In this document: piece by piece, positions 13,899-52,017 of the stretch
Layout of the letters: each line of letters begins with the position of its first letter
Numbering within the stretch: the stretch's first letter is position 1
Assembly (NCBI GenBank): GCA_037074765.1
Contig: JBAMDO010000575.1
Span: 124,001 to 188,000, forward strand
DNA from: Mansonella perstans
Taxonomy: Eukaryota > Nematoda > Chromadorea > Rhabditida > Onchocercidae
Length of the DNA stretch: 64,000 nt
Direction: 5' to 3'
Translations under genes and position numbers: made by a program
Notes under the pieces: generated by a model
What the model was told of the DNA's origin: nothing
Seen by the model: only the letters and a program-made list of their open reading frames with translations
Databases searched by the model: none

Positions 13899-14016
13899 CG
13901 TAGCAATGCTTGATGAAAAAACCGCATAGTTGTTAATATTTCGGCAGCAGTGGATGGTTGTTGATTGCATACTATACGACTGTGAAATTCACTTAGGGTA
14001 CGAATTTTCGCCGAAA
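13899..14016 (-). pseudogene. Isolated copy of an unc-79 N-terminal exon
   Basis: Identical in coding content to 49351-49468, the N-terminal exon of UNC-79 with the [13 protein letters not shown] motif. Splice sites are kept, but the next unc-79 exon in this direction is absent; sequence downstream is unrelated spacer. Carried here by duplication R3. Confidence 0.8.
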
Positions 14017-15947: not shown

Positions 15948-16546
15948 TTATTTAGCAATATCGTTTAAGATTCGATTAATATAATTTCTTGTTTTGATAT
16001 CATCGGCATCAGCTACCATTCGTTGCAAACGTCGAACTTCCAACAGTGGCATCCAGGTAAGTAAAGCTCGTGCAATAGATTCCAGGTAATCACTTAACTT
16101 ATCATTAAATAAGCTTTCGATTTCTGGAAAATTAATTAAATGCTGGAAAAAGTCGAGCGATACTTTACCATCTGGGAATAAAAAATCAAAATCAGTAAGG
16201 TTTAAGGTTGGCAAACAACGAAGTAAATGATATTGTCCGCAAAAAATCGCTAGTTGAATTACATTTTCAGGACAATTCAAGGGTGGTGAAGCGAATGTCT
16301 GAGGGATAAAATCCTTGAAATCTTCCATTAGTTCTCGATAATCAATATTATGCAGGATGTCATTTTGCAAGCCAAGCCAAGTGCATACTGCACCTGACCA
16401 ACCATTTTGTGCAGCCACTATAGTATTTCTGTACTGTATTGCATTAAAAATAGAAGGATGCAACATCAGAAGTGCCGTATCCCGTACCACATCATTTTCT
16501 GCCGACAATACCTTTTGCCTCTCTGATTCATCCATTCGTAAACTCA
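15948..16546 (-). pseudogene. Copy of exon 2 of the uncharacterised two-exon gene
   Basis: The same 3' coding exon as 51431-52033, open to its TAA stop, but the first codons (those encoding ALWK) and the splice acceptor are replaced at the duplication breakpoint. Its matching exon 1 lies at 17218-17745 on the opposite strand, so the two halves of the gene cannot be spliced together here. A Met in the exon could in principle start a shorter protein of about 199 residues. Confidence 0.75.
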
Positions 16547-16604
16547 TCCATTTCCTTTCTCTGATTTATTTATTCGGAACGAATGTGCAAATTGATGACA
16601 TATT

Positions 16605-18085: not shown

Positions 18086-19800
18086 CATCAACAATTCATC
18101 CATGACTCTTACCTGATCATCAGCAGTTCTGTTAAAAGTATGTATCACTAATCATATAATTATGCTCATTCATATCATATTTAAATTTCAATGCTTGCAC
18201 AAGTTCCGAGACAATTGCTTTTGTCAAAAATTGTTTATCACGATCCTGCAAGATTTTTTCTTGTCTCAGAAACAAACATCCAGCGACAATTGTATTTCTA
18301 TTAAGAAATTAGAATATTAATAACTGAAAAAAATGCATATAAAGAAATAAAAAAAGAAATGAGTAAGAAGACATTTTAAAAAAATTAAATAAATTTACTT
18401 TTAATAAGGCACGATTGCATGCCGTACAAACAGCCAAAAGATCCAATAGATCGGCTTTGCATTCATGTAATGCTTCTGTAAGCCACTTAGAAAATCCCTC
18501 TACCAGCGATACTGAACTCTGTAATAATTATTAAGCTATTGAATTGAATTATATTCTTTCTTCTTCAAGGCTTCATAATTTTTTCACTTAGTCTTCTACC
18601 ACTTCACTTTCTCAACATTCTCCATTTACTGAAACTACACCTTTGCTAAATCACCAGTACCATAATATAAAAGAAACAAAACAAATTTCGAACTTTAAAT
18701 GTAGAGAAGTTATGTACTCGTAGAACAGCTACCATTACACCAATGCAATTTTTGAATTCAGTACAAATCGGATTTCTATCAGTTTGCAATTGCATCTACA
18801 AGTTCAATATTTAAAATGAATTTTTAAACTAAATGTAGTTGTGAGGAAGCAGCAATTTAGAGAAGCATCAATCAGTTAAAGGAATTAAATAACCAATAAG
18901 GGTGTAAATGTTTGCAATAATTAGTGCAAAATTTAAACTGAAAAGATTGAAATAATCAAAAATTACTCAAAAATCAAACGGATGATTCTTTTAATTAATA
19001 AACATTGTAAGATATTTGTACAGAAGAGATAGTAAAAGCGATAATGATAATGCTGTATTAAAATGACAAGGGACTTGACATAATTAGTGAATTACAGCAG
19101 GAAATTTTTGGGTAAAAGAAAATGTTACCTTCGAAAGATATTGACGAAAGAATGAATCGAGCAAATTAGTAACGATATTCCAATGGGAGAAATATGCATC
19201 AGGTGATACATATTCCACATATACTGACAAATTAAACAAAATTCGAGACAGTCGATTAGGCCAGTCTTCCAGAATATCCTGAAATAAATTCCTTTAATTT
19301 TTTCCTTTCCAATATTATTATTACTACCGCTATTATTGTCATTTTTATCATTATTATTATTACTTTTATTATTGCTGCTATTATTATTATCATTATTATT
19401 ATTATTATCATAATTAATTATTATGATATTATATGACACCATTCAAACGGTTTGATCGTTGTTCTGAAATTTAATCGTATTGATTCGAATTTTTAAACTT
19501 AATAAGGAATTCTAATTAAAATTCAGAAAAACTAGAAAAAAATAACTTCGAGCAAATACTGAATAACGGAAACTGGATTTAATTCAGCAAAATCAGCTAA
19601 TGCAAATGATATCGTAGACCAAAACTGATTGACCCGTTCAATATTTGTATCAAACAATTGCAAAAATATTCCGCTTGATGACAACTGAAAAGTTTCGCGC
19701 CATCACGAAAATTATTCCATATTTCTCATATCGCTTTCAATCTAAGCTCAACTATTAATAGAAAAAAACTTTTTGAAAAAACCAATATGTCAAACGAATC
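18086..19800 (-). pseudogene. Partial copy of four unc-79 exons (R6, pairs with 28895-30630)
   Basis: Direct duplicate of the segment carrying unc-79 exons near 28940-29126, 29250-29370, 29990-30135 and 30400-30540, including the intronic ATT-rich microsatellite (19310-19420). The exon at 18090-18260 is shortened relative to 28902-29126, losing codons around the [16 protein letters not shown] stretch. Neither upstream nor downstream unc-79 exons accompany it, so it is a relic. Confidence 0.85.
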
Positions 19801-19837: not shown

Positions 19838-20650
19838 AATTTACAACTAATATTTCCAATGAATATTTCCTCAGGTAATAACAGAAACGTTGAATAGTCA
19901 ATTGTAAAAACTTACAAGCAATTACAAATTCAGCAGGATTATTTGAAAAAAAAAGAATTAATGGTAGAACTAACACGAATCAAATTCTTTAGAGGAAGAA
20001 ATTCTTTAGCTAAACTATTTAATTATTTGATAACGAAGAGGACAGGACACAAAATACACTAAGCATACATTATGATACCTACCTGAAGAATATTCAAATG
20101 TTTCCTTACAAACGAATTCCAAATTTGTTGGGTTGAACTGACAGTTGAAGTAAACGTAATGCGCAGCGTTTGGATGAGTTTAGTGAATACTGCTCTGCTG
20201 ATTATAAATGAAACCCTTTCTGTAATAAAGGTTCATCTAAGTCAATTATTGTAGTGCAAATCATCTAAGTCCATTATAGTAGTGCAAACTTAATTAGCGG
20301 TTAAAAAACTGTTCATCGAAAGTTACAATCCCGAACATTTAAACAAGCAAAATAGCAAATCCAGTAGTATGTCACCAATTTTCACATCCGTTATAATAGA
20401 AATTAATCAATCTAATTCTTACTTTTTTCTTAATTCTTATGATTAATTAATTTCAACTATTTTGAAGTATCAGATTTTTTCTAAAATTCAAAAGGAAAAA
20501 GAGCAAAAAAAACATTTCACAAGAAATAAGGAAATTTTGCATAACATCAGCATTTTAGAGGTGACTTTTTTCAACCTATTTCAGTTTAATGCAACAAGAA
20601 ACTTTTCGCTCAATTATATGCACTAAAATCAAACGGCTAGGCTTCTTTCT
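19838..20650. repeat. Duplicated segment R5 (direct copy of 52886-53700)
   Basis: About 0.8 kb shared in direct orientation with 52886-53700. Its first 500 bp form an inverted repeat with 16605-17110, making a large imperfect palindrome whose spacer holds the unc-79 relic exons. It joins directly to R1 copy B at about 20626. Confidence 0.85.
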
Positions 20651-23097
20651 GAAGTTTGAAAAAATAAAATGAATGACTGTTTCTAGGAAATAATAATTAA
20701 AAAAAAACGTAAAACCAAGAAAGAACAAACAATTTAATTACAAAAATAAATAATGATTACAGTGATAAAAATTTGAATTTGAAATAAAATCACAAATGAT
20801 GTTTCACTTTCTTCTCATTATGTATTAATGAATTCATCTTGCTCTTCATCATTGTCATCATTATCATCACCATTACGATCATTCATTGTTCATCATGACC
20901 ATCATCATCTTTCTCATCAAATTTTTTAATTTCAGTAGCATTTTCATAAAGCATGCTTCGAGGTATTTGTATGCGCATTATATTTCGACCATATTCATCT
21001 GTTGAATTATTAATTTCCATTTTTGATACTGTCGTTTTGATTGATTCACCTGATATTGCTGTTTCAACCACTAATTCAACCGTGCTCCTGCAATAATTTC
21101 CACAATACATTTTTAAGAATTTGGAAAGAGAAAAAATGAATAAGTAATATGAACAAATTAAAATATGGTCTAAATTGCCAATCAAAACAAAAATGAAATA
21201 TCGCCCAATCAGGTATTATTGGCAAATTTCGTTCCTTCGTATGATTGGTATTTTTATAAAAAATTGGTCGCATTATATATTTTGCCGAAAAAGTTAGACT
21301 TGTTCATTTGTTGGTGAGCATAAAAAAGAAAAATCTTATACTTGTTTATTTGTTGGTAAATCAAAATACTGTTACATTTGTTTACTTGTTAACAAAGCAA
21401 AAACAAAAATTTTGAAAACATATAAAATATGCGCATAACATATATATGATTGTTTGATGAAAAACACTTAAAGAGCTAAGAAACTTTTTTTTCGAAATAG
21501 ATCTCATAAAGTACCATGTTGCTGATTGCTCATTTCCTGATGTATTTGTATCCATTTGCTGTTTGCGTAACTGTTGAATCATTTTATGCTTTTCTTTTGT
21601 CTTCTTCATTAATTCATCAAACTGTTGAACTTGTTCTTGTGCTCGCATATTTTGACTAACAAATAAAGTAAAGTAAGATGAAATAATTTACTTGTCAAAT
21701 TTTAATCAATCATAAGTACATTAAAGTGTTTTGAAAGAAAAAAGTTAAATTGATTCAAATTATTTATTTTGTTTACGACCAAATTTTTAATCGAAAAATT
21801 TTCAATTTTAATCAGATTAAAATTATTTAACAAATGTATTAAAATATGTTTAAATAATTAAAAATACTTTCGTCTTGCGTAACATTGTATTAAAAGAATG
21901 ATAATAGCCATGAAAGAAATAATTGATGCCGTCGTAAATAAAACTATCTCAGCGATTTGTAAAACATTCTTCGATCTGAAATATTTTCATTTCTTTTTTC
22001 CTTTGCTAACAAATATATTCTCATTTCACTGATAGTTTCGTTTTTCAATTTGATCTATTTCATTTATTTGAAAAATTGTCGTTCGTTTGAAATTGATTTG
22101 CTATAAGGTCAATGGACATTATCGTAAGTGTTAGTCTACCGGAATCGCCAATGCATGATTTCCGTAATTATTGTCGCACTAACAAAAACTACATATATAC
22201 ATGGACATATATTGGCTTTTGATCACAATGAAACAGTTATCACTAAACAAACATTTAAAAACAAAAATCGAAACTTTCAAATATGTAAATTTTCTTATAA
22301 ATTTAAATGTAAAATTTTAAAAATTATGAAGCGATCATTAATTTTTTTTTCTTGAAAAAACTGCTTTGCAATTTATGAACAATTGTACTTTTTCAAGTAA
22401 GGATTTAGAACACTGACAATGTATGGATCAGTTAGTGGTCGAGATTTATTGATAACAGATTTTGAAGTTCATTGAATTTTTGTTGATCGATAAAATTTTG
22501 AAGAAAAAAAATTTTCGCTTTCTAAATTATTTAATAATAGAGAAGAAAATCTTTTATCAAGAGGATAAAAACTTGACATAACTGATATGATGCTTCTGGA
22601 AAAGAAAATTTGAAATTGTGCTTGAAAATTGTGCCATTTATTTACAGTACAAACCAATCGAAAGTAATGAACGATAAAATAAAATTATAAAAATTTATTG
22701 TAACACGACCTGTTTTCGAGAAATTGAAAAGTTTGCATAATTTTATTTAATTAATTCAGTTATATAAATTTTATTCAGGAAATGTTTGGACTTGGTGTGG
22801 AAGGAATTGTAAAACAGTATCAAAGTGAAATAAAAACCTTCATTCTACCAGATATGTCACATACGGCATTTGATAGAAATATGGAAAAGAATCGCTATAA
22901 AGGTTTTGTTACTTTCTTTTATACCTTTTAAATTTTTAATTTCAAATTCAATCCGACTTAACAGAATGAATAACAAAGATAATTTTTAAAAGTTTTTGAC
23001 CGATTTTAAAACACTGACACGTGTAATTTTAAAGACAAATTAATTGCACATTGGTGATAATATCAAATTATGTTTATATATCTGTCATATAATCTAA
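20626..23097. repeat. Segmental duplication R1, copy B (pairs with 7648-10085)
   Basis: Second copy of the 2.45-kb unit with the membrane/coiled-coil gene and PTP exon 1. Unlike copy A it runs on into further PTP sequence. The short overlap with 53680-53733 suggests that R5 and R1 were joined here through shared sequence. Confidence 0.9.
20883..22178 (-). CDS. Small single-pass membrane protein with coiled-coil tail (copy B, 5' end uncertain)
   Basis: Paralogue of 7886-9166 with the same exon plan: 22140-22178 (weak), 21868-21975 (transmembrane segment followed by basic residues), 21515-21655 (Gln/Lys/Glu-rich, coiled-coil-like), 20883-21087 (acidic C-terminus and TGA stop). Coding sequence appears the same as copy A; differences are in introns. 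Family not recognised. With two nearly identical copies it is unclear whether both are real or one is a mis-assembled haplotype. Confidence 0.55.
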
Positions 23098-23950
23098 TGA
23101 GAAAAAGTAACTGCTAGATAATTAACTGCAAGTGAAGTATTGCAGATGTCATATGCATCGATAAGACACGTGTTGTGTTGCAAGAGGGAGATTCTGATTA
23201 CATTCACGCAAATTACGTTAAAGGTGATCCATTCCTGAACTCGTTTATTTGTACTCAGGTAAAGCAATAGTTTCAACGATTTTTTTGATTTCTCCACTAC
23301 TCTTTTGTCAGCTAAATAACGAATCTTTTATAATTTAATATCAAATTAATCTGTTACCTAATTTTTATCAGTTGTTCCTTTACAATGATTTAACTTTGAA
23401 CGTTTCTTCGATATTTGTAAGTTTTTAAAAGATATGCGTGTTTCAGAATTAATTTTTCAAAATAAATTTGTTATTAAAAAATATATTCATTTATTTCCTG
23501 CTTTGCAATTACAATAATCTTGTTTGTCATTTTTGTTGATATATTTGTTCTTGGAGGTTAATTAAGCTTGGTTATAATTAATAGTTTTAATTATTACTGT
23601 AGGGACCAACGCAAGCAACAGTAAATGATTTTTGGACTATGATAATGCAAGAAAAAGTAAGTAATATTGTCATGCTATGCAATGTTCTTGAAGATGGCAG
23701 AAATAAATGCTTTCAATATTGGCCGCAAGATGTTGGCTTGTCGCTTACATTTAGAGGTTATTTAATATCAATTATACATTCTATTTGTCTTTTCTTTGAT
23801 GTATAACTGATCTTATTGGTCGATTGTCTAATACCTAATTATAATAGTTCACTGATTTGTTTTTTTCTTTTAGTTTTACAAGCAGTTCCTTTAAACAATT
23901 AAAATAAACCTTTCGTTTCATTTTTATGTCTATGAAATTAAACATGCATA
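22435..23950 (+). pseudogene. PTP fragment: exons 1-3 (copy 4)
   Basis: Carries exon 1 (ATG near 22783, ending at the KNRY motif), exon 2 (near 23150-23262, HANYVKGDP region) and exon 3 (near 23604-23757) with the five-T, in-frame NDFWTM motif. Similarity ends near 23950 in the following intron; the WPD, P-loop and Q-loop exons are missing, so no active enzyme can be made. Its intron 3 resembles the fragment at 3800-4359, as if those two pieces were once contiguous. Confidence 0.85.
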
Positions 23951-26376: not shown

Positions 26377-29300
26377 TTACACATTATAGAGCGGTGATGC
26401 TGCCGATGTTTGCAATTCAACTTGTGAAATTTTATAGCGTACATCTTTAAGCCACTGTTGCAGTGGTGCGGAATTCAATGATGGTTGATTTTCGCAAGAA
26501 TCCAATTTTAGTCGTAATTTATTAGGAATTTGAGCGTGATAAGCGGTTAGGATCGGTTGCCACATAGCACCCATTTGACCGAGTATTGCTGAATTACATT
26601 GTCGCAGGGCTTGCATTGTATTGAGGAAATGTAAATTGACCATGTCTGCTAGCTAAAAGGACTTGATTTATATGTTGGTGATATGCATGGCAATCAAATG
26701 ATAGTATAAAAATTTTTCATTGATAAGAAATAGCTGAAGGCAAAAAAACTGTTCTATCATCTGGGTGATATTATCATGCCTAGAATTCCTTTAACATAAA
26801 TCCTGAAAGGTAGTAGTTATACCTGACCCGATTAATCATTATCAGGTCAAAAAAATCGATATTAAACTTGTCATTTTGCAACTCTAAAGCTATTTACTTG
26901 AAATCTCAATTGAAAAATAAACGTACCACTTTGGAATGTGATAAAAGCTGTAGAATAGCTGGTGTAACTCGAGCCCAAAAATCCAAAATATTTGCTAATG
27001 AAGAAAGCTGAGGCTCATCTGATGTTAATGCAGCTCGTTCACAATAAACAGTCCATAGTTGACACAAATGAAAAGCATGGAAAAGTGCTGACATATGAAC
27101 AACTGATTCCTAAATAATGGTTGAAAAATTTATTTGAAAAAATTCATATTTATATCTTTCTCATACAAATCAATAAAAATTCAAAAATGTGATTGAAATC
27201 ATTAGCCCTTTAAATTTAGCGTAAATAAGGCTAAAAATTAAGAAAAGAAAAAAAAAAACCTTTGACTGATCAGCAAAACCAGCAAGTACAAAATGAATAT
27301 AATCAGCCATATGTTGTGAGCAACTAATCGGTATTGGTAAACATGGTTGATTAGCCTGAAGTGCTCCAAGTAATAGCCATGAAAGTAATCGTACGTTTGT
27401 TACAGCTTCCGCAAATGCACTTGGCATAGATTGCGTTACGGATGGCGGTGACATTAACCATGGCAGGTAACGATTCTGCAACATACATTTCTTCTTTAAA
27501 CAGTATGATCAATTTTTATTCTATACATTGGCTATTAGAAGATTACAATTCATTGGTTACAAAAATTTATTTGAAACAGAAAATATTATGATATTTATGA
27601 AGAAAGTATTAATAAATTATAAACAGAAAAAATTGAAAGGATTTTCAAGAAAAGGAAATCAATATGTGCGCAATTCTTATATACACGGATAAGGATATGT
27701 GTAATATGCATAATTGAACAAACTGTTTCCGGAATTAGAGACTCTTATAGAGGCAGTAATGTTATTATTTGCAATCAATACTGAAATTCTTTATTATCAA
27801 TTTAAAGACATCATTGCTTCAATGATTAAACATGATAAGGGATCTGAAAATATCAAAGAAATAAGATCAATGGAAAAGATGGAAAAAATTTTGAAATTTG
27901 ACAGAAATCAATTTAAAGCGTTGCAGACAAACTATTTGATCAAAGAATTGATAAAAAAGAATAATTGAACTCAAATAATCCGAGAAGGAATGCATTGGAT
28001 AAGAAGATAAGTTGCAAAGGGTCTTACAAACTTGTCCTAATTAATTATCTCATCTCGCTCCCATGAAAGAAACGACTTTAAGCAGTTACGATCTAAACAG
28101 TTCTTTAACTCATATCAGTCCTGAAGATAGAATAAGTCCAACACCGATATTAACAAGTTTCTAAAAAATGATGCTAGAGTTACCACAGTTCGAGAATCAC
28201 GCACACCTGATCGGCTCATTTCAACACCAACAATTTGTGCCACTGATGATTTGATATCACCACCAATACTATCGGAATTGGTGATTTTCTAAAAAATTAT
28301 TTCTTTAAAATTGAAATTAACCACTCTAGAATTGAGAGAAGAAGATTTTAAAAAAGAATCCCTAAGGAAGATACTGAAAAACTGCAAAAATTTAATAATT
28401 GAATATCTTTATATACATATACACGTACCTTAATTTCGGTAAGCACATGTAGATCGGAAATAAAATCAATAAAATCAAAGATATGCGGTCGGACAGCATC
28501 ACAAGCTGCCGTATTATACTGAAAGTTGAATTAATAAAAGTGACAAGTGGAAATTTGCTCCAATTAGGGTTAATTATCAGGAGAATCCCAAAAATCTCAT
28601 CAGCTACGATGCGATTCGTTTTTCTTAAAAAAATCATACAGCAACAAAGTTTAATACAAAAATGAGATTAGCGGATGAAAAATTAAACACGATAACTAAT
28701 TAATTAATCAATGCGTATTGTATTTATTTATTAAATAGAAGGAAAAAATTTTGATGAATAGTAAAAAAATCTTTATCATATAAGTTCTATTAGTCTATGA
28801 AACATTTCACCTAAGATATCTGAAGGTTCTTCAAAATACATATATAGTAACAATCCCATGAAATACTTAAACATTATGATCATATATCACAGCCACGATC
28901 CTTATCTGATCATCAACAATTCAGCCATGAACCTTACCTGATCATCAACAATTTCTACCGAAACATCTTCGCCAGCGTCTTGCAATATTAAATCTATCAC
29001 TATCATATAATTATGCTCATTCATATCACATTTAAATTTCAATGCTTGCACAAGTTCCGAGACAATTGCTTTTGTCAAAAATTGCTTATCACGATCCTGC
29101 AAAATTTTTTCTTCTCTCAGAAACAAACATCCAGCGACAATTGTATTTCTATTAAGAAATTAGAATATTAATAACTGAAAAAAATGCATATAAAGAAATA
29201 AAAAAAGAAATGAGTAAGAAGACATTTTAAAAGAAATTAAATAAATTTACTTTTAATAAGGCACGATTGCATGCCGTACAAACAGCCAAAAGATCCAATA

Positions 29301-32300
29301 GATCGGCTTTGCATTCATGTAATGCTTCTGTAAGCCACTTAGAAAATCCCTCTACCAGCGATACTGAACTCTGTAATAATTATTAAGCTATTGAATTGAA
29401 TTATATTCTTTCTTCTTCAAGGCTTCATAATTTTTTCACTTAGTCTTCTACCACTTCACTTTCTCAACATTCTCCATTTACTGAAACTACACCTTTGCTA
29501 AATCACCAGTACCATAATATAAAAGAAACAAAACAAATTTCGAACTTTAAATGTAGAGAAGTTATGTACTCGTAGAACAGCTACCATTACACCAATGCAA
29601 TTTTTGAATTCAGTACAAATCGGATTTCTATCAGTTTGCAATTGCATCTACAAGTTCAATATTTAAAATGAATTTTTAAACTAAATGTAGTTGTGAGGAA
29701 GCAGCAATTTAGAGAAGCATCAATCAGTTAAAGGAATTAAATAACCAATAAGGGTGTAAATGTTTGCAATAATTAGTGCAAAATTTAAACTGAAAAGATT
29801 GAAATAATCAAAAATTACTCAAAAATCAAACGGATGATTCTTTTAATTAATAAACATTGTAAGATATTTGTACAGAAGAGATAGTAAAAGCGATAATGAT
29901 AATGCTGTATTAAAATGACAAGGGACTTGACATAATTAGTGAATTACAGCAGGAAATTTTTGGGTAAAAGAAAATGTTACCTTCGAAAGATATTGACGAA
30001 AGAATGAATCGAGCAAATTAGTAACGATATTCCAATGGGAGAAATATGCATCAGGTGATACATATTCCACATATACTGACAAATTAAACAAAATTCGAGA
30101 CAGTCGATTAGGCCAGTCTTCCAGAATATCCTGAAATAAATTCCTTTAATTTTTTCCTTTCCAATATTATTATTACTACGCTATTATTGTCATTTTTATC
30201 ATTATTATTATTACTTTTATTATTGCTGCTATTATTATTATCATTATTATTATTATTATCATAATTAATTATTATGATATTATATGACACCATTCAAACG
30301 GTTTGATCGTTGTTCTGAAATTTAATCGTATTGATTCGAATTTTTAAACTTAATAAGGAATTCTAATTAAAATTCAGAAAAACTAGAAAAAAATAACTTC
30401 GAGCAAATACTGAATAACGGAAACTGGATTTAATTCAGCAAAATCAGCTAATGCAAATGATATCGTAGACCAAAACTGATTGACCCGTTCAATATTTGTA
30501 TCAAACAATTGCAAAAATATTCCGCTTGATGACAACTGAAAAGTTTCGCGCTATCACGAAAATTATTCCATATTTCCCATATCGCTTTCAATCTAAGCCC
30601 AACTATTAATAGGAAAGAAACTTTTTATAAAAACCAACAAAAAATTAGCAAATTATACAAAAGTATCAAAATTTCTAAGCAGTATGAAACACAAACTTGA
30701 TGCAACAGAACGCGAATTAACTGCTTTGCAACACTGCGACAATTTCCGGCAACAAACATCAATGTATCATGCCATGGATGTAGTGGCCTTTCAATTAATC
30801 TAAACATTTACAATCATAACTTATCAAAAATTTTCGATAATAAATCACTACAACATTTTTTTCCAAATCAATGTATTAACCTGGTAATGGTACTGATGAT
30901 ACGGAAGAGTAATGGAGCTGCCATTGCAGGTTCTCGATGAATAAACGTTTCCAAAGCAATCATACACAACGATAATGTTTCTTCATCGAAATTTCCCAAC
31001 AGTTCATTGCAATAACCGCATCGATACTTACGTTTATCCATGATTAAGTCATTTGTTGCTATAATAAAGTTAACTGCTCAGTTGACAATTACCTCAGTTG
31101 ACAATTGCCCTACAAATCTCATTGTAAACTTCTCACGATCTTCGTTATAATTCTTATTTAACTCTTGCACAATCAAAATTATTAGTGCTAATCTGAAATT
31201 AATTAACACTAAGCTATGAAAAATACGTTGGAAGTGATGCTTTGTTCGATCTGCCAGCTTTTTACCATGCTTCATAACTTCTTCTCCAATTGCTTCCAAT
31301 TTCCCTTCATTTATCTGAAACAAATGACACCGTTGTTGTTATGATTTAGTTCCAATCAAGAAAATTAAGCCAAATGGAAATCTAACGGTGAAACCAAGTT
31401 CACTAAATCTTGATGTTATGTAATTCGGAAAGACCTTTAATTACAAGTCATACAATTAATTTCATATAATAATTCATAAATATCAACGAATGTGATAAAA
31501 TTTGCAATAAATAAGTGAATTAAGTTATTCATCCATAACATTTCTCTCATCTTAAAATTCTTTTAATTTCACTGCAAATTTACGATTATTTCTTCTTTAT
31601 GACTTACATTAACGGCAGAATTGGATGAGCATAAAACAAGTGTCTCAGGCCGATGTAACTTATCAGTGCCACATTCATTTTCCAACTCTTCTTCATCAGA
31701 ACTTGATAATGGATCTATTTCGATCTTTACCGGTGGTGCTTTCATATTACAGACATGAGCCTTTAAGAAAATCTAATAAAATTAAAATTACAGGAAATAT
31801 CAAATGGTAAAATGGTTTCGACAAGGAATAATCACCTTCGTAAAATTATCTTTAAGAGTAGGAAAAAAATAATTTAGGAATGTTTTCATTTCAATTTCTT
31901 TCAAGAAAAACGGTTCAGAAGGAATAAAACAATAAGAGTGTTACATTGAGAAAGACTTACTTCAGTTTCAAGGGTGCAAATAATTATTAAAATAAGTTTT
32001 CGCAAATATTCGCTTAAAGGTGGCGCATCATATCGATACTACAAATAAATCATATTGTATCAATACTGACAACAAATTAATTGTTAAATCGTTTTTAACA
32101 TTTGCATGTTAAATCGCAATCAAAATGGCACTGAATCAAGACAAGTTAATCTTTAAAAAACATAAATAGAACTGAATTAAAAGACTGAAACAGCATGGAT
32201 AATTTATTAATTAAGAGTAAAATACCGGACGAAAGGGAACCATGAAATTTCCTATCTCCCGATTCCATGTCTCCTTTATGATAGACATTAAGCATTTAAT

Positions 32301-35300
32301 ATCCATATATCGGCATTTAAAAATTCATTTTTTCACTTTTCACGCGAATAATACGAAAAAATCAAATTATTCAGTGAGAATTTCTTATTTCATTTCATTT
32401 CCAATTTTGCTCTTCAGAAACCTTGTAAAGGATAATAATAACTGAGTTGAGCCAAAAATATCGAGCGTTGATGTCCAGTAAGGTAAGTGAATACTCGGTT
32501 AGTGGTTGATCACTGACCAGTTTTTGAGGAGATGGCAAATGAAGTAGGAGTTGCACGCCAAGCATCAAAATCTGTAACATATTCAATTATCATTTGAAAC
32601 CAATTTTTGCCAAAATTTAGTCTTTCTTCTTCCTAGCACTAACTTTAATCAGGAAAACGTAGTTATTTCGAATACGATAAAATGATTTTTGCATACAGTA
32701 TGATAATGGCTAGAAGATAACGCCATCATCCTACTAATAAAATAGCACTGATAACTTCTTTTCAAATATCGTTGGCAATACAAAGATACCTTATATTAGC
32801 ATGAAAACAATATTTTGCTGAGCATTTTAGTCAATCAATCCTCTTACCTGATTTCCCACCACTAAATTGGAATCCAAAATTTCCGGTAAACCACTTAAAA
32901 AGCTATTGCACACCGCTGATTTCCTGAAATATTTATCAGTTTTTGGCATAAGCATAAATTAATTTTTTCTTTATTTAATAGTGAGTAAATCTAACTTGCA
33001 AACAACTTCATTAATGAATTCATTCTCATTTCATATTTGCTTATACAGTGATAAGAGAAAATATAGAAAAATTTAATTGAAATACTGAACAAACCTTAAT
33101 ATTTTAGGCGGTACGATGAAACATTTCTCGGAATTACTGTAGCCAATAAGAGCATTGAAATGTCGAAAAAGTAAACTTTGCTTCTTAGCATTTGTTTTTT
33201 CATTACCATTTTTATTTTTACAAAGGAATGACACGAATAATGAAACTGTCAGGTAAACAATGTACCGTTCCGGATTGTCGATATCAACTACTCGATTCAG
33301 TAATAAACTCATATTGCTCTCTTCATCCGTAAATTCTCGTAAGCGTGGAAATGCTTCTGAAACCAGTCATAGTTATTCATGGTAGTTAAAATTTTCTATT
33401 GGTCAAATTCGTAGCAATTCAGAAGTTTGAGTAGCAGTTTTCTTCGTTACGATATCTGTTATGATAAATCAGAATAATGAAAGACATTAATTCTCCTTCA
33501 TGGAACTCATTTCAAATTCATAACATTCAATATATTTATTCCAGCATTGTTGCCATAAAAAAAACATTTGATAAGATCAATGATTGCCAAATTTAGAAAA
33601 GTAATTGCTATATTCAATAAATATTTCAAATATTTGAAATAATATTTCTCAAGAGTGAAACCTACCGCCATCATACGATGAACTATGCAACGATTCTTTC
33701 ATTTCTTCCGCTGGAAAGAAAAATTACTGTGAAAAATACAAAGGAAAAAATATATGCAAATACAATGTAATCATTTTTAAATGGATGCGTGCATTGCTAT
33801 AGAACAATTAAAAGTGATAGATTTGAATTTTCATTAATAAGTCTAATTAGGCTTATTAATGATTGGAGTAACTCTGATTAAAATGAATAGAGAAAGATTG
33901 GTGCAAATTAAACATATTTTAGAAATACCAGTAATGTCCAATCTATTTATTATAAAATTTAAGTAATTTAATTAAAATTATTGCAATTAATTCTTTTGTT
34001 AATATTTTTTCGAGTTAATTAAGTCGTGCGGCAGTACCGTATTAATCTCTACCGCATTCATGTGTTCAATACTTGCGCGTTCCATTTTAACTAGACCGAA
34101 TCTGAATCGATTTTCAACTCATTCTCCACTGTTATCAAGGCTATTCCAACCACAGAAAGACGACATCTTTCACAGTCAAAGAATAAGAAATTAAACCAAT
34201 TCTCTGCAACTTCATTAGCAACTGGCTCACCTGGCCTTAAAATTCTATGAATATCGCCTAATGCATCTTCTCTGGAAGCGTTCTTGTCAATTATCAAGGT
34301 TTTTCTTTTATGTATGGTTCAACTCTTACATTATCGATATCTAATATATTAATTTCTTTAATATCGGCAGCTTTATTTGCTTAAAGAGATCGCTCGCTAT
34401 CCTATCGTCACCTGCTGAAAGTAATTCCTCGCCACTTTCTCAACTGGATCCTCAAAAAACCAAAATCCTCCCCATCCTAATTCTCTATATGCCCATAACT
34501 TCCAAGCGCTATACCTGCGCTTAAAAAACACTAAGACATTAGAGAACAAATCCGCATTACTTCAGCTTAAAATTTACCAATTTTATTAAATTTAAGAGCC
34601 GATATTGTAACTGAATAACCTATGGGAAATCCAACATACTCTAAGTACAGAATAGGAGAGTGCATTGCAAGAGCAATATCTTGCAATATCCTGGATTTAA
34701 TCCAAATCCATGTGTTAGTACGATTTTTTTCTCCCACTTTTTTTTTTGAAATGAAAACATAAAACAACAAAATGATCGAACGGAAAACTGATTGGACATA
34801 ATTAAAAAGTAAAGTTATCAATTTTTATAAGTACTATCTTGATAATAAATTCCAATTGTCCAGTGTAGATTGATGTCCATAGGATAAATTGGTGTACTGA
34901 TGAATATATTGTGCATCATTCACGAGTAAACGGTATATCAAGGATGTCATCATATATAATGACATCGATGATAATAGTGAATACATACTATTCATAGATC
35001 TAACCAAAGCTGATACAACATTTGTAAATGATTGTATATGTTTGAATAATCGCCAGACAGAGATAATCTAACGATGATAACCATGTGACCGATCTTTCTT
35101 CGACCATTGATGAATGAACTTGTACAACTTTTCACTTCACCATCTTTTCCTCTAGTTGATTAGTTACTAATTAGCTAATTGCTCACTTTTAATCCCTAAT
35201 TCGATTATAATCGTCCATTTTATTTCTTCATATGATAACTTGAATATGACCTCCATAATGCGTTTCAAATGTTATTAAGTTGGCCTGTTATTGGCAAGAA

Positions 35301-38300
35301 TTGCCATTATCAAGACAGTGGCAAATTTTGGGACAGAATTACTAGCCTATTTCAATATTGCAGAACTGACCTACTTTTAATATTTTGAACACAATTTAAG
35401 GTCTTATTTATTTTTCTGGACAATATTAATGATAGACAGATCATTTGAAGTGAAAGAAAATGATTTTATGATTGATATGAAAGACAGAAATCAATAATCA
35501 ACAGTTCATAGGTTTTTTTTTTATATTAAGAAAAATTTGGAAACATACATAATGGTCGAAGTATTGCAGTACTGAGCTGATGACGCATTGAATTATTCTG
35601 TAAGGTTCGAACGATCGATTGAGCATTGGAATTATTCTCGATGATTTGACGGGCACGAGTTACTTTTCGTTGGTGAAATTCACTCAATGAATCCGAGTGA
35701 GACAGGCCTGAATTTCAATTTCATTTTTTTTAAAGATTATTTTTTCAATTTCTGCTCATTCCGTGATATCTTGTGCTATTAAAATTCATTTACTATAAAT
35801 GCAAAGTATTACTATATTTTTCAGTATATTTTTCAAGTGGATAATATAATAAAAGATTCAATGCCAAGTAAATCATCATTTTCAACTTGATCTATTTCAT
35901 TTATTAGATTTACGAGAAAAAAGAAGCAATGAAATCAATAATAATAAATAATTCTTTTGAACTAACTAAACCACAAGTATCGATGATGACCTATAGCTGA
36001 ATCCTTCATTAAATAGCACTAAGTAAAGCTAACACTAAAATTTAACGCAGTTATACAAGAAAATAAATTGACCAAGCACAACGTTAGATTCGCGATTCTT
36101 CATAAGAAGTTGGTTCTCGATAGCAAGTTCTTCAAATCGTCGATCGAAAAATTCCCACGTGAGAATTTCCTGATCCGGAAGGATTGATGCCAATTGTTGG
36201 ATTCGAGTAATAATCAATGCTCGATCAAGAAATGAACTATCAAATTGCGATTCCAAACAAAGACACATCAACTGTAATAGTTATATATATGTATTAAATT
36301 TCAAAATTTAAATTCTCTCTTTTTTTAATTTCGAAGTTTAAAGCCATCATCATCTACGATTACGAAAGTTCGGCAGAAATTTTTCGAGATTTTTTTAAAC
36401 CAACACTAATAACTTGAATGACAAGAGTTTAAACAAAATATTCGGTTTCTTTTTTCAGATAACTGCTATATTTATTAGTTTTACATTCATAACAAATAAT
36501 GTCCAATTAATCTAATTAATTAATTACTAAAAAGCAAACTAGTCGTAATTTTTCCAACCTTTAAAGAAGCTGAAGGCATATGTTGGATGGATAGTAATGC
36601 CTGTTGAACAACAGCTACATTCGGATCATCAACTGATGCAATCAGATGTGTAATACAACAACTTAGGCTTGTTTGAATTACTTTGTTTGAGTTAATTGGT
36701 AAAGCATTTGCTAGCTGGAGAAGTACACTTGATCGTTCTACTATAAAATCATATTAACATAACTTTTTCTTTTAGAGAAATGAAGATCTAATAATGTCGA
36801 AAAATATTCATTAAGCGAAGCTAATCTTTTTCTTACTAAATTACATAGAAAGAGAAAAAACTAATACAGCTATTTAAAGATAATAGAAATTTTTAAAAAA
36901 TTAAAAAAAGAAAGAAAGAACCTAGTAACTGAACTATTCATTATTTACGCAAGACTATAGATTATAAGAATGTTTTTTCTTTCTAAAAATGAAAAATAAA
37001 ATTTATGTTGTAATTAATTTACCAGCTAAAAATCGTTCCTCCCATCGCTGATCGGTAAATTGTGAATTAACCACTTTCCAGAACATTTCTTCACCACTTG
37101 GTAATGTTATACAATGCATAATTAATGGAATTACTAATTCAGCTAACTGGAATTGTATTCTTTGTTGTACCAAAAATTAGTTGGAAAATTAAAAAAAAAT
37201 CAAATGATAAAATTTAATTTTCTCTATGGATGTTTGTTTATTTGCATTCAAATTTGGTTACACTTTCCATTTTCAATTCTATGAAAATATAAGATGTGGA
37301 AAAGAATTCATTCTTAGAAGTCAAATAATGTAGTGCAGAAGTTCAAGTTACTTTAACCTGTGAGCGGTCTGAACGAAGTAAAGTCCAAAGTTTTGGTATC
37401 AGTAAATTTTCCTGCGCCCAAATTAAATAGCCTCGATGTTCATGACGAGCGTTCAACAACGATTCACAATGAAGACATAAAAATTTCACTGTTGTAAGCA
37501 TAAAGTAATGAGCATCTGCTTCATATTCCATTTCCAGATTCTAAAAATAAACTGGATTTTACTATTCAAACTTACTCATTCTATTAAGTAAATTCTTCGA
37601 TGAGTTACATTGTGAAATTAATGAAAAAGTTTTTTTTTGAAAAGGAAGGAACTGAGTTGACAAGATTCATTTATGGATCAATTCTTTACTCTTGAAAAGT
37701 CTTTTTAACTCGACTTATAACCTCTAACTTCAATTCTAACCGTTAAGATGGAATGGATAAGGCGAAGTTGAGCTGGCAAATCAGAAAGTGCAAAACGGAA
37801 ACGTCCCACCGAAGTATTCCAAAATTTCGTTGTTTGCTTTTCCGCCGTATCCTCCACTGGTGACCCTTTGACATCTTCCACCAATGATGAAATAATATGA
37901 TATGTTTCACGTCCTACATCTATTTCCGTCAACGTTGTTGCATGTGCGACAGCCGTTTCTACCTAATAAAAATAATAAACAATTATTCGGTGGTTAATTA
38001 AAATATTATATTATTATACCTCAACAAACAGTAGTGCTGCTACAGTATCAATGTTTAAAAAAAACCAAATTTTGAAAAAAAAATTCTAAAACGGAATATC
38101 TTCAAATGGGTAATAAAAATCTAAGATTTTTGAAATCATCAAGTTGGTAAGATAAAATTTTTTCGCCTATTAATTGCATGTAATTTCACAAACCTCTTCA
38201 CTAGGCAATACGCCAACAAATTCAATACTTGTTTCATGGATAGTAGCCGTTTGGAATTGAAGTTCAGCAGTGCGTGATTTTGCTGACTTATCAATAAGTG

Positions 38301-45690: not shown

Positions 45691-48600
45691 TAATAATAAT
45701 AATAACAATAATAATAATAATAACAATAATAATAATAATAAATAATAATAATGTATTCATGAAAACGTTTTCATCAAAGCTGCTTATTACTTATGTTGCT
45801 TAAACTTAAAGTTGCTTAAAGATAGTTATAACTGAAAATCTTACTGAGATCGGTAGAATGTTGAAGTATCATCATAAGAACAGGCGGTACTGAAAGGCAT
45901 TCTTGTTTCGGTATAAGAATAAACGGGATAAAACATGTGCTTATCAGATGTACAAGCTTTTTATCAAGTTCGGCTGGAAAAACACCAAGTTGAGAAGCTA
46001 GCAAAAATGGCAACTGCTCGAGAAGATCACGTTGTAGGAAGAAGTACAGTGCCTTGAGTGTATCGAGGATTGCATCAGCAATAGCTGAAATTTTTTTAAA
46101 AAATTTTATGGCAGAAATTAAAATGTATCCGTATGAAATGTTAAAAAAGAAAAAACTTTTTTAAGTTTCAATTTATTTATTTCTTATATTTCATGCAACA
46201 AAGATCACCAAGCTGTGAAGCTGAAATTTGTTGAAAAACATCAAGCAAATTGATTATTCCATAATAAAGGCCTGAATAATTCAAATTTGGGTACAACGCT
46301 GCTCGATGCAATGTGGGACAATAACGTTCAAAGGCACTTGTCGGTACTGGCGGCATTTCTTTCAGGAATCTGCAATTATGTTTACTCAATTTGATTGGTA
46401 TTAAGTTTAATTTTTTAAAGAAAGTTAATCTGAGAAATTCAGCATGTTATTTCTTAGAATTTGTCATCTTTCATATACATCGAGATATTTGTTAATTTAT
46501 TTTTTCTCCTCTCAATTTATCAAACATTTTCTCTTTTCTTTCAGAAAAAAGTACTTTAAATCCAAATGTTTGTTAAACTTGAACACTTCAACTATTAAGT
46601 TTCCAAAATTTTCAAGAATATTTAAAAATGAAAAGACGGAGGAAGCCATCATCACAGCTTATGCATTTCGACTCCCAGCAATCTAATAGAATAAACTGCC
46701 ACTGAAGCAATGTTCAAAAATTCTTCAATCACTGATGTGATATATAAAACAAATAATAACTTATTTCAATATTTTTCGTTGTTAATTTTCCCTTCTTCCA
46801 AAAGTTGGATTTTATTATATAAATTTAAATAAGCAATGCTACAAATTATCCCTTAGTTAGATGTAGGAAAATGGATTAAAAAAACGACTAATCGAATGAT
46901 AATATATTCAATTATTTTAGTTACATTAAAATCAACTAGAAATTGGTTACAAGGTGATCAGAGGTGATCCCCAAGAACGATCTGACCTTTGAAACTTGAC
47001 TGAAGAAACTTCCATCTTCAAACCTTATCCTTAAATATTGTTCATCATTTTTTATTTGCTGCACTAATTATAAGCAATTTTTTGTGTTCTCTATCGGTAT
47101 ATTTATTATACATTCGATTATATGATGAACATTTTTATTTCCACTTCTTCTATTTTAATTTCTACCCAACTGATAAACTGTCATATAAACTTTTAATGTA
47201 TTAATTAACAATCGATGGTTCGCAAAGGTGCGGGACAATAAGTAAAAAATCAGACTTTTTAAAACTATAATTTGATTTGTTTATAAGCGATAGAGATTTA
47301 TTTGGAGCAGTATTGCATCGAATTCACTTTTTGTCAGCTTATATCTTAATTTCAAATTAGAGAATTTATTTTGCAGCCTATGTTCTCTGCGTCAAATAAA
47401 AAAGCCAAAGCGGTCTCTGTTCAAGAAAAGTTTGAATAGTACCATTAAATGTCGCACAATGAAAGCTTTGGAGAGAAAAATTTTTCCATTAGTAACTGCA
47501 ATCTTTTCAAATGCAAATGTGAAGATTTATAATAATGGCAGAGGTATGACATAAATAGAAAAAAGACCTAATAAGCAAAAGAGATCTTATCAAATAGTCC
47601 AGCTTTTATTCAAATTTAAGATTTAGCAAAAATTTGAAGTCTTAACATATGTAACATATGTAGACTGGCAAGAAAAACTTCTGAGAAATTCCTAAATCAA
47701 AAATTTTTCCTGCAATCGAGAATTTTGCAAAGAAAAGCTTGTATTTTGCTGCAAAATATTTCAGAAATTCAAAAAGAAAAAGAAGGGGAATGAAAAGACA
47801 AGTAAACAATAAACAAACGAAAAAGAGTGAATGATTGATGAATGAAAGAATGAAATATTCTTCTCAAAACACTTTGCAGTTGTAATTTTTCAAATTGGAA
47901 CTTAAATATTCAAAAATTTCCCTTGTGATTTGTTTTTTGCTGTGAAACAAATAAAAATTCTGAAATCAGTTGACATTTTTTTAAGGCTTCATTTATTTTT
48001 GCAAATTCATCTGACTTCATTAGCCATACTTATTAGCTGTTAATACTAATTTGTCAATATTCATTAACACATTATCTTGTCGTGCATCAGTTAGTAAATT
48101 GAAGGAAACTATTTCTTTAAAGGAATGAGTGAGAAACACTTTTACATCATTATTTCATATTTTCAATTAAAATGACGTTAGATGAAAAAACTGGGTGATT
48201 TTTCTGAATTCAAATGAATTGACAATTTTATGTAGCAAAAACGCCATAGACAAAAGCAAAGATTTCTATATAAAAAATAAGCAAGCCAGTCTGTTGATTG
48301 GCACAAACTTATAATAAAGTCTATTTGTTGATTGACGCAAATGTACTAACTTTTATAATTAATCTTTTGTTTAACTAAAGAGAGACTTTAACCCTGTTTT
48401 AATAATTCAGCTTGTAATCTAAAACACTTGTTACTTTTATGATAATTTGATGATGGCGCTAACTGATAAGCCTAAGAAGATGCAAAGATAGGCAACAACA
48501 TTAATATAACCTACGAACATTATCTCTACTCCTAAAATCACTCATCCATTATCAGTTTTATTTGAAAAAAGATTTAATTAGCTTTGTACAAATGTAAAAA

Positions 48601-49468
48601 CAAAATTTCACTCTCCCATACCATTTCCTTCCATTTTCATCATAAATTAAACTTCAGAAATAAAAATTTATAATTAAAACTCTGGCAAAAACACACACCG
48701 AAATGAAATTCCCTGCAAAATTAAATTTTTATTTCTTTTCCACTTTCCAACCACTAATTAATTGGTTTTTTTGGAATAAAATGAAATGGAATGAATAAAA
48801 TGTTAATAAATAAAATGCATGAACAGATAAAACAACTGAAAGTACTGGCTGAAGCTGCAGCAATTGAAAGTCATTTAATTTGTGCAGTATTTGATGAAAT
48901 TGAAAAATTTGTTTAATAAAAATTCGACAACAAAACTATGTAAGCATTGTTGAAAACGAATGAAACGATTACGATAATATTAGGAAATGAAAAGCAACAA
49001 AAATAATTGGAGAAATTAGACGAATCTGAAGACGAATCATGACATTTCAACTATAAATTATAAAAGAAAACGAAAAAAACTAAATGCAGGATTTCCTATT
49101 ATCAAAAACAAGATATTTGATAATGATACTGTACTATGCCAAACCAAAGATAGCCAAAAAATCCTAATTATTGATAATAAAACTATCAGTAATGGAAAGA
49201 ACGAGACAACAACAACAAGCAAGCTAGCCAGGATTATAATAAATTGAAAATAAAAACTAAACTCATTATAAAATAAGTCACAAGAGAGAAATGAGTTTTT
49301 GCAAGCTGTGAAATCTTTTAAAACAAACTTCAAAAACTAATTCAACTAACCGTAGCAATGCTTGATGAAAAAACCGCATAGTTGTTAATATTTCGGCAGC
49401 AGTGGATGGTTGTTGATTGCATACTATACGACTGTGAAATTCACTTAGGGTACGAATTTTCGCCGAAA
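26377..49468 (-). CDS. unc-79: UNC-79 homologue, NALCN/NCA sodium-leak channel auxiliary protein
   Basis: Very large protein built of helical repeats; in animals UNC-79 works with UNC-80 to stabilise and localise the NALCN (NCA-1/NCA-2) cation-leak channel in neurons. About 40 exons can be followed, including 49351-49468, 46209-46369, 45845-46084, 43978-44033, 43543-43672, 43272-43323, 42822-42990, 42473-42565, 41983-42127, 41392-41555, 40982-41086, 40131-40220, 39680-39870, 39429-39552, 39037-39204, 38495-38734, 38194-38412, 37741-37962, 37358-37540, 37023-37146, 36559-36740, then on to 26377. Diagnostic blocks: [24 protein letters not shown], a cysteine cluster at 42500-43000, [46 protein letters not shown]. 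Phases match at the junctions checked. The first coding exon lies upstream of 49468 and was not found. Exon borders below 36 kb are approximate. Confidence 0.93.
27712..28290 (+). other. Coding-like relic in an unc-79 intron
   Basis: Antisense to unc-79. A frame from about 27712 to 27965 is rich in Glu, Lys, Ile and Met (coiled-coil-like). After a stop, protein-like composition returns near 28063-28160 ([17 protein letters not shown]) and 28180-28280 ([16 protein letters not shown]), with stops or frame changes between. It looks like a decayed processed copy or exon cluster of an unidentified gene. Confidence 0.3.
34010..34436 (-). pseudogene. rpoB: Bacterial rpoB fragment, Wolbachia-like nuclear insertion
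   Basis: Lies in an unc-79 intron. Read on the minus strand it gives [22 protein letters not shown], then [11 protein letters not shown], then [13 protein letters not shown] and [13 protein letters not shown]. These are conserved blocks, in order, of the bacterial RNA polymerase beta subunit, with wording close to Rickettsiales. Nuclear or mitochondrial RNA polymerases do not carry this set. Frameshifts (before the DKNAS block), an in-frame TGA and an internal deletion between LSVVG and ENRF inactivate it. Filarial nematodes commonly hold such Wolbachia-derived nuclear insertions. The donor genus is inferred, not proven. It abuts a ccmF fragment at about 34436. Confidence 0.88.
34437..34720 (-). 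pseudogene. ccmF: Bacterial ccmF fragment, Wolbachia-like nuclear insertion
   Basis: Minus-strand reading gives [21 protein letters not shown], then [11 protein letters not shown], then the tryptophan-rich [13 protein letters not shown] followed by DPVEK. This is the signature of CcmF, the bacterial cytochrome c haem lyase subunit (LQDPGLAxHPP and the WWD-type motif). Lesions: a stop after GKF, TAG replacing a Trp codon, and frameshifts in the WWAY and FFDP positions. Joined directly to the rpoB fragment in the same orientation, so the insertion is a composite of two bacterial genes. Non-functional. Confidence 0.85.
34865..35072 (+). other. Coding-like relic beside the bacterial insertion
   Basis: On the plus strand a protein-like frame ([21 protein letters not shown]) shifts frame near 34945 and continues as [18 protein letters not shown] and on to a TAA near 35071. 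Codon use is unlike random AT-rich intron. No family could be named; it may belong to the same insertion event or be an unrelated pseudogene. Confidence 0.3.
40712..40826. repeat. Intronic hairpin with about 20-bp arms
   Basis: GATGACAGATGTAAATTTTC at 40711-40730 and its near-perfect reverse complement (GAAAATTTACATCTGTTATC) at 40804-40823 enclose about 75 bp in an unc-79 intron. Could be a short foldback element or an RNA hairpin; no mature small-RNA evidence is available. Confidence 0.5.
45540..45752. repeat. (TAA)n microsatellite, about 210 bp
   Basis: Long, slightly interrupted TAA/ATT run in the unc-79 intron between the exons at 45845-46084 and 43978-44033. Interruptions are CAT and AAC units. 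The long polyAsn or polyIle frames it creates are artefacts of the repeat. Confidence 0.95.
46370..49350. other. Long first visible unc-79 intron
   Basis: About 3 kb between the unc-79 exons 49351-49468 and 46209-46369. Only AT-rich sequence was seen; 48556 onward belongs to duplication R3. A degenerate tandem unit (GTTGATTG...CAAA) occurs near 48290-48345. Confidence 0.5.
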
Positions 49469-52017
49469 CTGAAAAAAATTTAATTCGTCCTTTTATTTAA
49501 TAGACATCAAAAATTTTTCAAATTATTTCTTAAGAAAATAATGTTATCAAATAAAAATATTTAATCACTTTTTCAATGGGAATCTTTAGTTAAAATTTAT
49601 TATTTGTTAGAAATGAAATAGAATAGGAGAGAATGAAAAGATTGAAAACTTTGAAATAATTCAAATCCTCGGAAAGTTTATTTCATTCTTTGCATCTGAA
49701 AATTTCTTGCAAATTCTTTCACAGCGTGATAAAGCTCGAATTTACTGTCATTGTCAGTATTGTAAAATGTTTTCATCAATTGAAATTGTTAAATTTGAAA
49801 TATTTCACTAAAATATATGCAAGTCTTCATATGCGTGTGCTTTCATGCATTGTTGCCAATTTAAAACAAGATTAAATATTTTAAATCGCTGCTAAACATC
49901 GTTAGTAGTAGTGAACAAAATATTATGTAAATAAACTTCTACTTGCAATATATGAATAAATCAACATAATTTAGCTCAAAAATGTATCAAATTTTTGATA
50001 AAATATAATTAATAAACCACAGTATAGTAAAAACTCCCAGATGTGCAGAAAACTATTGATTGATATAAACTCTGTCTTACTGATAAATGGAACTTCTAAA
50101 CGAAAAACAAGTTTTCGCCACTATTACTTATAAATCATTTTGCCACATTTTCAACCAGCTAAATCTACCGTATCTAGCGTACTGTACTCTCTAATTGTTA
50201 TTTATTGATCACATTAATTATTATAATAACCAATAATACTGTAGTATTGCACAGGAGAAAAAATTTTGATAACTAACAGGTGTAGTATTTCAACAGGTAA
50301 GCCATGATTTAACACTGATTGGATGATAGAAATATGAACGATATGGTAAAACAGATGAAATGATGATTATGTTACTGATTGTATCCGAACTTTGGTTAGC
50401 TTTTATTCGGATTTTAATCTCTAATCGCGGTATTTAAAGGATCACCGGAAGAATGCATTCTTTACTTCTATCAGCAAGCAGGCGGAGACCTCAGTCTTCA
50501 TTAACGACCACGCCTTCATCTACATTTACATTGACTCTTTCACACTTTATCTGTCTATCCATACCATTATATCGGAAATTAAGGACCCGAATGTTTCATA
50601 TTCAATATCATTAAATGAAACGATCAGCTGATCATGATGACATTATTGCTGTTTACTTGTTTCTGTCCGTTGAAGTGATCTGACATTCTAATTTCTTCTG
50701 ATAATTTCCTTATAAAAAGCAATTTTAAAACTTTTTCATTTCCTCATTGTACTTTTAATATTTCACTATGTTCATCATTCTTATAACAACAACAACAACA
50801 ACAAAAAGGCTTTGATGTGTAGTAAATGATGTACAGATACTCTCCTCACAACCTTTACTTTTTCAAACAAGAGCAATGGAATGGAAAAAATAAAACAAAC
50901 ATGTCGCAGATTGTGTCACCATATTGTTGACCGAAGATTATCATATGCAATCATAATATCTGATACAGGTCGTAATTCAGTCTAATACACTATTACATAG
51001 AATGGTAACTTTGCAGAAATCATAGGCCATCTATTGCTATAGTTGGAATATCGAGCGGAAGCATCAACCGCGTCGCATCTATTAGATTGATCGAGCGAAA
51101 GCTTGCATAAACGGATGTTGCGCGTTATCATAGTTTCGACGAATCCAGTGTTCCACATAGACATCACACATAGACAAAGGCAGATGCACAACAATACACA
51201 CATACATACATACACACTGCTGCCAGTTTTATACAGCTTAATCGAGCGGATTTTTTTTGAACTGGAAACCTTTGACCTTGCAGCTAAGTACATGAAAATG
51301 CTAACAGAGGAACTGAAAATATTTTTATTCACATGAAAAATTAATCCAACAATGGATAATGGATAAACAACGATAATGGATAAACAATGGATAAGTGTTG
51401 ATAATACTTGTACAATACATTTAGGTAATATTATTTAGCAATATCGTTTAAGATTCGATTAATATAATTTCTTGTTTTGATATCATCGGCATCAGCTACC
51501 ATTCGTTGCAAACGTCGAACTTCCAACAGTGGCATCCAGGTAAGTAAAGCTCGTGCAATAGATTCCAGGTAATCACTTAACTTATCATTAAATAAGCTTT
51601 CGATTTCTGGAAAATTAATTAAATGCTGGAAAAAGTCGAGCGATACTTTACCATCTGGGAATAAAAAATCAAAATCAGTAAGGTTTAAGGTTGGCAAACA
51701 ACGAAGTAAATGATATTGTCCGCAAAAAATCGCTAGTTGAATTACATTTTCAGGACAATTCAAGGGTGGTGAAGCGAATGTCTGAGGGATAAAATCCTTG
51801 AAATCTTCCATTAGTTCTCGATAATCAATATTATGCAGGATGTCATTTTGCAAGCCAAGCCAAGTGCATACTGCACCTGACCAACCATTTTGTGCAGCCA
51901 CTATAGTATTTCTGTACTGTATTGCATTAAAAATAGAAGGATGCAACATCAGAAGTGCCGTATCCCGTACCACATCATTTTCTGCCGACAATACCTTTTG
52001 CCTCTCTGATTCATCCA
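48556..52017. repeat. Segmental duplication R3, copy B (parental arrangement)
   Basis: Pairs with 13101-16546. Here both neighbours are intact: the unc-79 exon is followed by the rest of unc-79, and the 51431 gene has both exons, so this is taken as the source copy. The interval 49469-51430 contains no exon I could defend, although the missing unc-79 start exon should lie here or further upstream. Confidence 0.85.

Follow-up and report, generated by a model that had tools for sequence, protein, structure and literature searches.

A short segment of bacterial DNA within the nerve-channel gene unc-79 of an onchocercid nematode derives from the Candidatus Midichloria lineage. Midichloria is a bacterium known from ticks, and Wolbachia is the usual symbiont of filarial nematodes. 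The insert occupies about 720 nt of the minus strand, at positions 33999-34720 of the 64-kb stretch of DNA that was analyzed (the window), and is composed of a broken ccmF piece abutting a broken rpoB piece. The best explanation, with a probability of about 0.9, is a dead insertion of bacterial DNA in the nuclear genome of an onchocercid, whose donor belonged to the Candidatus Midichloria lineage, and whose pieces were joined, captured in an unc-79 intron and then left to neutral drift. The identities of the pieces, the donor lineage, the unc-79 setting and the decay are all demonstrated by the comparisons described below. The coordinates of the features are collected in Table 1.

Table 1. Features of the insert, its unc-79 setting and related loci. 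Positions refer to the window unless a genome and contig are given; G000 is the nematode genome.
Feature	Position	Strand	Evidence or remark
ccmF piece	34440..34720	-	DNA match to Midichloria ccmF
rpoB piece	33999..34439	-	equals Midichloria RpoB residues about 339-509
ccmF/rpoB joint	34439..34440	-	alignments read by eye
133-nt internal deletion in rpoB	34144..34145	-	alignment A2
15-nt internal deletion in rpoB	34128..34129	-	alignment A2
unc-79 coding frame upstream of insert (exon inside)	36035..36280	-	7sx3_D UNC79 1024-1082, E 2.1e-8
unc-79 coding frame downstream of insert (exon inside)	33073..33366	-	7sx3_D UNC79 1171-1240, E 0.0021
further unc-79 frame	31077-30868	-	UNC79 of 7sx3, residues 1908-1956
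UNC-79 PF14776 exons	46308-39688	-	profile match
rpoBC fragment	G000:C147:202451-202897		fused-rpoBC model 227 bits, stops inside
rpoBC fragment	G000:C18:292038-292244		fused-rpoBC model 104.1 bits, stops inside
rpoBC fragment	G000:C521:606533-606911		fused-rpoBC model 87.1 bits, stops inside
rpoBC fragment	G000:C58:158307-158654		fused-rpoBC model 77.4 bits, stops inside
ccmF of living Midichloria	G001:C1:593157-594861		degenerate
ccmF of living Midichloria	G002:C119:9133-10811		degenerate

Both genes are recognized by family models and by DNA comparison. The NCBIfam rpoB model TIGR02013 matches at 34318-34091 (E 2.9e-9) and 34118-33999 (E 1.2e-6), and the NrfE model TIGR03145 matches at 34824-34567 (E 6.5e-8) and 34561-34397 (E 1.2e-6); all of these matches are partial and far below the curated cut-offs. 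Pfam gives a single weak match, Cytochrom_C_asm (E 0.0059), also below its cut-off. Comparison with Midichloria DNA by blastn returns three blocks (E 1e-97, 3e-55 and 3e-35), far above chance, which are the sole matches between the whole window and the 933,600-bp chromosome of Midichloria strain IholoSidney (low-complexity filter on, E <= 1e-4). When this filter was disabled, an A+T-rich match of 37 nt to Midichloria appeared at 33950-33985 (E 0.001), which is taken as chance. The extent of the insert was set from the three blocks (33999-34128, 34144-34440 and 34456-34711), while the outer edge at about 34720 and the stretch 34440-34455 were read from alignments A1 and A2, so that the edges are precise to about 10 bases. 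The initial annotation had described minus-strand pieces of ccmF and rpoB with stops and frameshifts at 34010-34720. The NCBIfam and blastn matches bear out the genes, the strand and the lesions, and the end at 34720 holds, but the start was measured at about 33999.

Compared with intact relatives, the ccmF piece has two tryptophan codons changed to stops and frameshifts of +2, -1 and +4. The rpoB piece contains one stop and indels of +3, -1, +2, -133 and -15 nt, with a further -1 at a block edge. The composite insert is present in one copy in the 75.7-Mb, 539-contig assembly, where no second match to the ccmF family was found at E <= 0.001. Its G+C content (0.360) is higher than that of its flanks (0.297) and of the Midichloria genome (0.303), which counts against the best explanation. 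A target-site duplication or mobile element was sought at the insert edges, and none was convincing.

The insert lies between two coding frames that match UNC79 in the solved structure 7sx3 and is therefore within unc-79; with the PF14776 exons, these frames agree with the gene setting proposed earlier. It is carried in an 874,793-bp host contig with unc-79 frames on both sides and, as far as the assembly goes, appears to be embedded in a host nuclear chromosome. A 1.65-kb block is found twice in the window (18140-19785 and 28992-30637, 99.1% identical), and the second of these copies falls in the region expected for the 3' part of unc-79.

The closest sequences found to both pieces are rpoB and ccmF of the two Midichloria genomes, the MAG HscuESP (rpoB JALDTH010000008.1) and IholoSidney (CP094379.1). 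For comparison, genomes were called Wolbachia-type when rpoB and rpoC were fused into one frame, of 2762-2848 aa in the nine such genomes among the matches listed, and not by genome names; this fusion presumably characterizes Wolbachia and closely related bacteria. When the rpoB protein was compared with 262 Rickettsiales genomes (216 matching), the two Midichloria ranked first with 83.6 and 83.4 bits (67-68% identity), followed by a third genome at 64.8 bits, and the nine fused-rpoBC genomes among the matches listed scored 41.0-44.7 bits. Over 127 shared rpoB residues, identity to the insert is 81% for each of the two Midichloria; the next row reaches 61%, and the nine fused-type rows 46-47%. 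At the DNA level, identity to HscuESP is 86.6% over 298 nt at 34144-34440 (350 bits), 84.6% over 130 nt at 33999-34128 (142 bits) and 77.6% over 263 nt in the ccmF block at 34456-34711 (208 bits). The corresponding values for IholoSidney are 80.9%, 82.3% and, over 267 nt, 75.3%. Among the loci compared by blastn, the best fused-rpoBC-type locus reached 61.7 bits and the best other locus 79.7 bits.

For ccmF, a 40-aa query matched 175 of the 262 genomes, with IholoSidney at 43.9 bits (68%), the runner-up at 40.2 bits and the best fused-type genome at 35.2 bits. HscuESP reached only E 6e-4 on this query, since 10 nt of this region are missing from its own gene. The ccmF margin in favor of Midichloria is thus small for protein and wide for DNA. 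A pattern scan of genome contigs for the 75-aa rpoB frame gave two loci, each from Candidatus Midichloria; since the scan relies on exact short patterns, it is an unfair contest between donors. The insert groups with the two Midichloria in a 42-row protein tree (support 100/99), in which the tree program flags it for a long branch and an odd letter make-up, and a tree constrained to unite it with the nine fused-type rows is worse by 21.5 log units, a grouping that the AU test rejects (p-AU 0.00168). These comparisons point to Midichloria as the closest relative of both pieces: for rpoB, and for ccmF clearly by DNA and by a small margin by protein.

The two living Midichloria differ from the insert in both genes. 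Their rpoB is intact, unlike that of the insert, and their ccmF is degenerate with lesions unlike those of the insert (seven rows were used for the ccmF alignment A3, with the G052 row left out). In both living copies of ccmF, a 5-nt unit (CCCTA or CTCTA) is duplicated in tandem at the same site, and the repeated unit is the same within one genome and different between the two genomes. The insert is missing this duplication and is therefore in frame at that site. Either the insert is older than the break, or it has lost one repeat copy, or the two duplications arose independently.

The decay of the insert can be followed in the rpoB piece, where 40 changes unique to the insert were counted over 432 aligned sites. 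These changes are distributed evenly over codon positions 1/2/3 (12/15/13; p 0.83), whereas those of the living Midichloria fall mostly at third positions (2/1/30 in IholoSidney and 4/0/8 in HscuESP), and the insert differs from the pooled living changes (Fisher p 1.7e-6). At 3 further rpoB sites the insert, IholoSidney and HscuESP all differ. No rpoB indels were found between the two living Midichloria in the aligned region. The even codon pattern and the indels therefore indicate that nearly all change of the insert's own came after transfer and without selection. Together with the stops and frameshifts, the evenness over codon positions argues that no purifying selection has acted on the insert since transfer. 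Neutral change of the insert amounts to about 9%. A mutation rate like that of C. elegans is 2-3 per billion sites per generation, which would give a rough age of some tens of millions of generations and no date.

The joint of the two pieces offers a view of how the insert was formed. On the complete IholoSidney chromosome, rpoB is a minus-strand gene at 344.6-348.7 kb, and the remains of ccmF are found at about 593.2-594.8 kb in plus-strand orientation; with a distance of about 245 kb and a difference in strand between the two genes, the joining is secondary. In the insert both genes run in the same direction and their meeting point is internal to both. The blastn blocks on either side of the joint stop at 34440 and 34456; read by eye, the alignments continue ccmF to 34440, and the two genes abut with at most 1 nt shared. 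Since the joint cuts an essential gene, a live bacterium could hardly carry it, and we therefore infer that the pieces were linked by end joining after they had left the donor, either in the nematode or as free DNA. If instead a single large segment had been transferred and then shortened by deletion, an inversion would be needed as well, unless the donor gene order differed. The initial annotation had read two unrelated, decayed genes lying end to end as an old transfer from symbiont to host in which non-contiguous pieces were joined, and this part is upheld for two Rickettsiales genes.

Under the best explanation, free symbiont DNA would have reached the germline nucleus, and non-neighboring fragments of the donor's ccmF and rpoB would have been ligated by end joining. 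The ligated piece would have been captured in an unc-79 intron, probably during double-strand break repair. It would then have drifted neutrally and acquired stops, frameshifts and two internal deletions. The insert is predicted to have no function of its own and to be removed by splicing together with the intron.

The exact position of the donor leaves some room for alternatives. A member of the Midichloriaceae beyond the sampled Midichloria, resident in the insect vector or in the worm and not a tick symbiont, may have been the donor, though we consider this unlikely. Sampling of Midichloria for the donor comprises two genomes, and no branching order of the insert, HscuESP and IholoSidney is supported. 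With neutral change set aside, however, the insert branch has no third-position excess (13/40), which argues that the donor diverged near the common node of the two living Midichloria. It can also be suggested, tentatively, that an onchocercid ancestor harbored a second Rickettsiales symbiont in its germline, of the Midichloria lineage, beside or before Wolbachia; the fossil would then have left its donor near the split of the two Midichloria and may keep the ccmF frame from before the break.

An assembly artefact, in which contaminant bacterial sequence was placed in a host contig, is very improbable. The insert is known from the assembled sequence, but the rpoB piece has neutral-pattern changes and indels that would not be seen in a living bacterium for which this gene is essential, the insert is flanked by unc-79 frames within the 875-kb contig, and the assembly contains neither a full-length rpoB nor another ccmF match. 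When the assembly was searched with two rpoB models (12 and 15 matches), none of the matches passed the family cut-off, and therefore no intact or full-length Rickettsiales rpoB is visible; purging before deposition is possible. The search for more Midichloria inserts covered 40 kb of the 934-kb IholoSidney genome. A 20-kb piece bearing rpoB matched only the present insert in the whole nematode genome, and a 20-kb piece bearing ccmF matched the insert and contigs C199 and C535 at 72% and 68%. The latter two matches, which we take to be two pyruvate dehydrogenase E1 subunit genes, are probably conserved enzyme genes of the host itself.

The nematode genome also provides an internal control. Four other rpoBC fragments (Table 1) are probable Wolbachia inserts, judging from their scores: the fragment on C521 reaches 87.1 bits with the fused model vs 69.2 with the general rpoB model, and the insert 28.0 vs 30.4 (31.0 vs 35.1 in the window scan). 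Separately, COX1 gave 20 scattered matches in the same genome (e.g. C25:105373-106254), 16 of them with in-frame stops, which are either nuclear mitochondrial or bacterial coxA pieces. A nuclear transfer from Wolbachia, perhaps of a divergent supergroup, is hardly credible for the insert: onchocercids commonly carry Wolbachia inserts, according to the text of one survey (PMC12693587), and the present genome has rpoBC fragments fitting the Wolbachia-type model, but in the 262-genome comparison the nine fused-type genomes among the matches listed have about half the Midichloria bits, Wolbachia-type DNA scores 61.7 bits against 350 for Midichloria, the tree and AU test reject the grouping, the model scores of the insert and the C521 fragment run in opposite directions, and nesting with Wolbachia is not observed, so that this donor was ruled out.

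The label "Wolbachia-like" in the initial annotation is accordingly not retained. The peptide blocks that this annotation took as diagnostic are general features of RpoB and CcmF, not marks of Wolbachia. It had also treated the insert as the mark of a Wolbachia-exposed host; as the donor is Midichloria, the insert alone is no proof of such a host. Best matches outside Rickettsiales had been named as the finding that would overturn the assignment; the matches are inside Rickettsiales but belong to Midichloria, so this test was too loose.

The host can be placed by its own genes and not by the insert. An ordinary nuclear GrpE gene (PF01025; about 62200-63530, plus strand) is closest to onchocercids, with 89% identity to Elaeophora elaphi (best among 120 of 163 matches), 87% to Acanthocheilonema viteae, 86% to Cercopithifilaria johnstoni and 83% to Setaria digitata; over a part, it is 88% identical to Onchocerca ochengi and 87% to O. 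flexuosa. None of the matches listed comes near to full identity. This gene has a weak protein match to Midichloria GrpE at 62796-63182 (E 1e-12), and other window protein matches to Midichloria are at E 0.001 or weaker. A 202-aa frame in the window has a best match of 63%, with 57% to C. johnstoni and 55% to O. ochengi. Duplicated blocks at least 99% identical and about 35 kb apart are present in direct orientation at 13102-16539 / 48554-52022 and, inverted, at 16583-17811 / 53442-52214, and contain frames of about 200 aa with no Pfam match. Further repeats at 7639-10086 / 20614-23096 (98%) and 466-1994 / 22445-23950 (93%) are perhaps dispersed elements.

Tick-borne filariae meet tick symbionts, and Onchocerca volvulus is a blackfly-borne worm. 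The insert corrects the natural but wrong inference that every filarial scrap of rpoB or ccmF is Wolbachia, and it preserves evidence of a contact that searches limited to Wolbachia would be prone to overlook. A clear Midichloria fossil beside Wolbachia-type fragments shows that the filarial germline has received DNA from a further lineage of Rickettsiales. It becomes testable whether present-day symbioses were accompanied or preceded by a live infection with Midichloria or by a tick-borne past. A 2025 survey of 22 filarial genomes used Wolbachia models at 1e-30, as given in its main text, where a word search finds no occurrence of "midichloria" (PMC12693587). In the available text of another paper, Midichloria is mentioned once, as kin of Wolbachia (PMC8105934). 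Literature on Midichloria with nematodes or lateral transfer (titles and abstract openings, with subscription journals mostly outside) yielded no further nematode insert.

The nuclear Wolbachia transfers (NUWTs) of filarial nematodes, as described in the survey text, consist, like the present insert, of decayed symbiont DNA, taken to be without function, in the nuclear genomes of onchocercids, and differ in donor, since the present insert groups with Midichloria (PMC12693587). The nearest known case is a Midichloria-like lateral transfer in O. volvulus at OVOC_OM2 22,596,036-22,595,692 (PMC5310847). It is likewise a short piece in an onchocercid nuclear genome with its best match in Midichloria, but it is a single 345-bp piece known from a one-sentence report, whose text does not name the gene (PMC5310847). 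The present insert is a second and better-described case of this known kind, in which an ordinary mechanism is combined with an unusual and rare donor.
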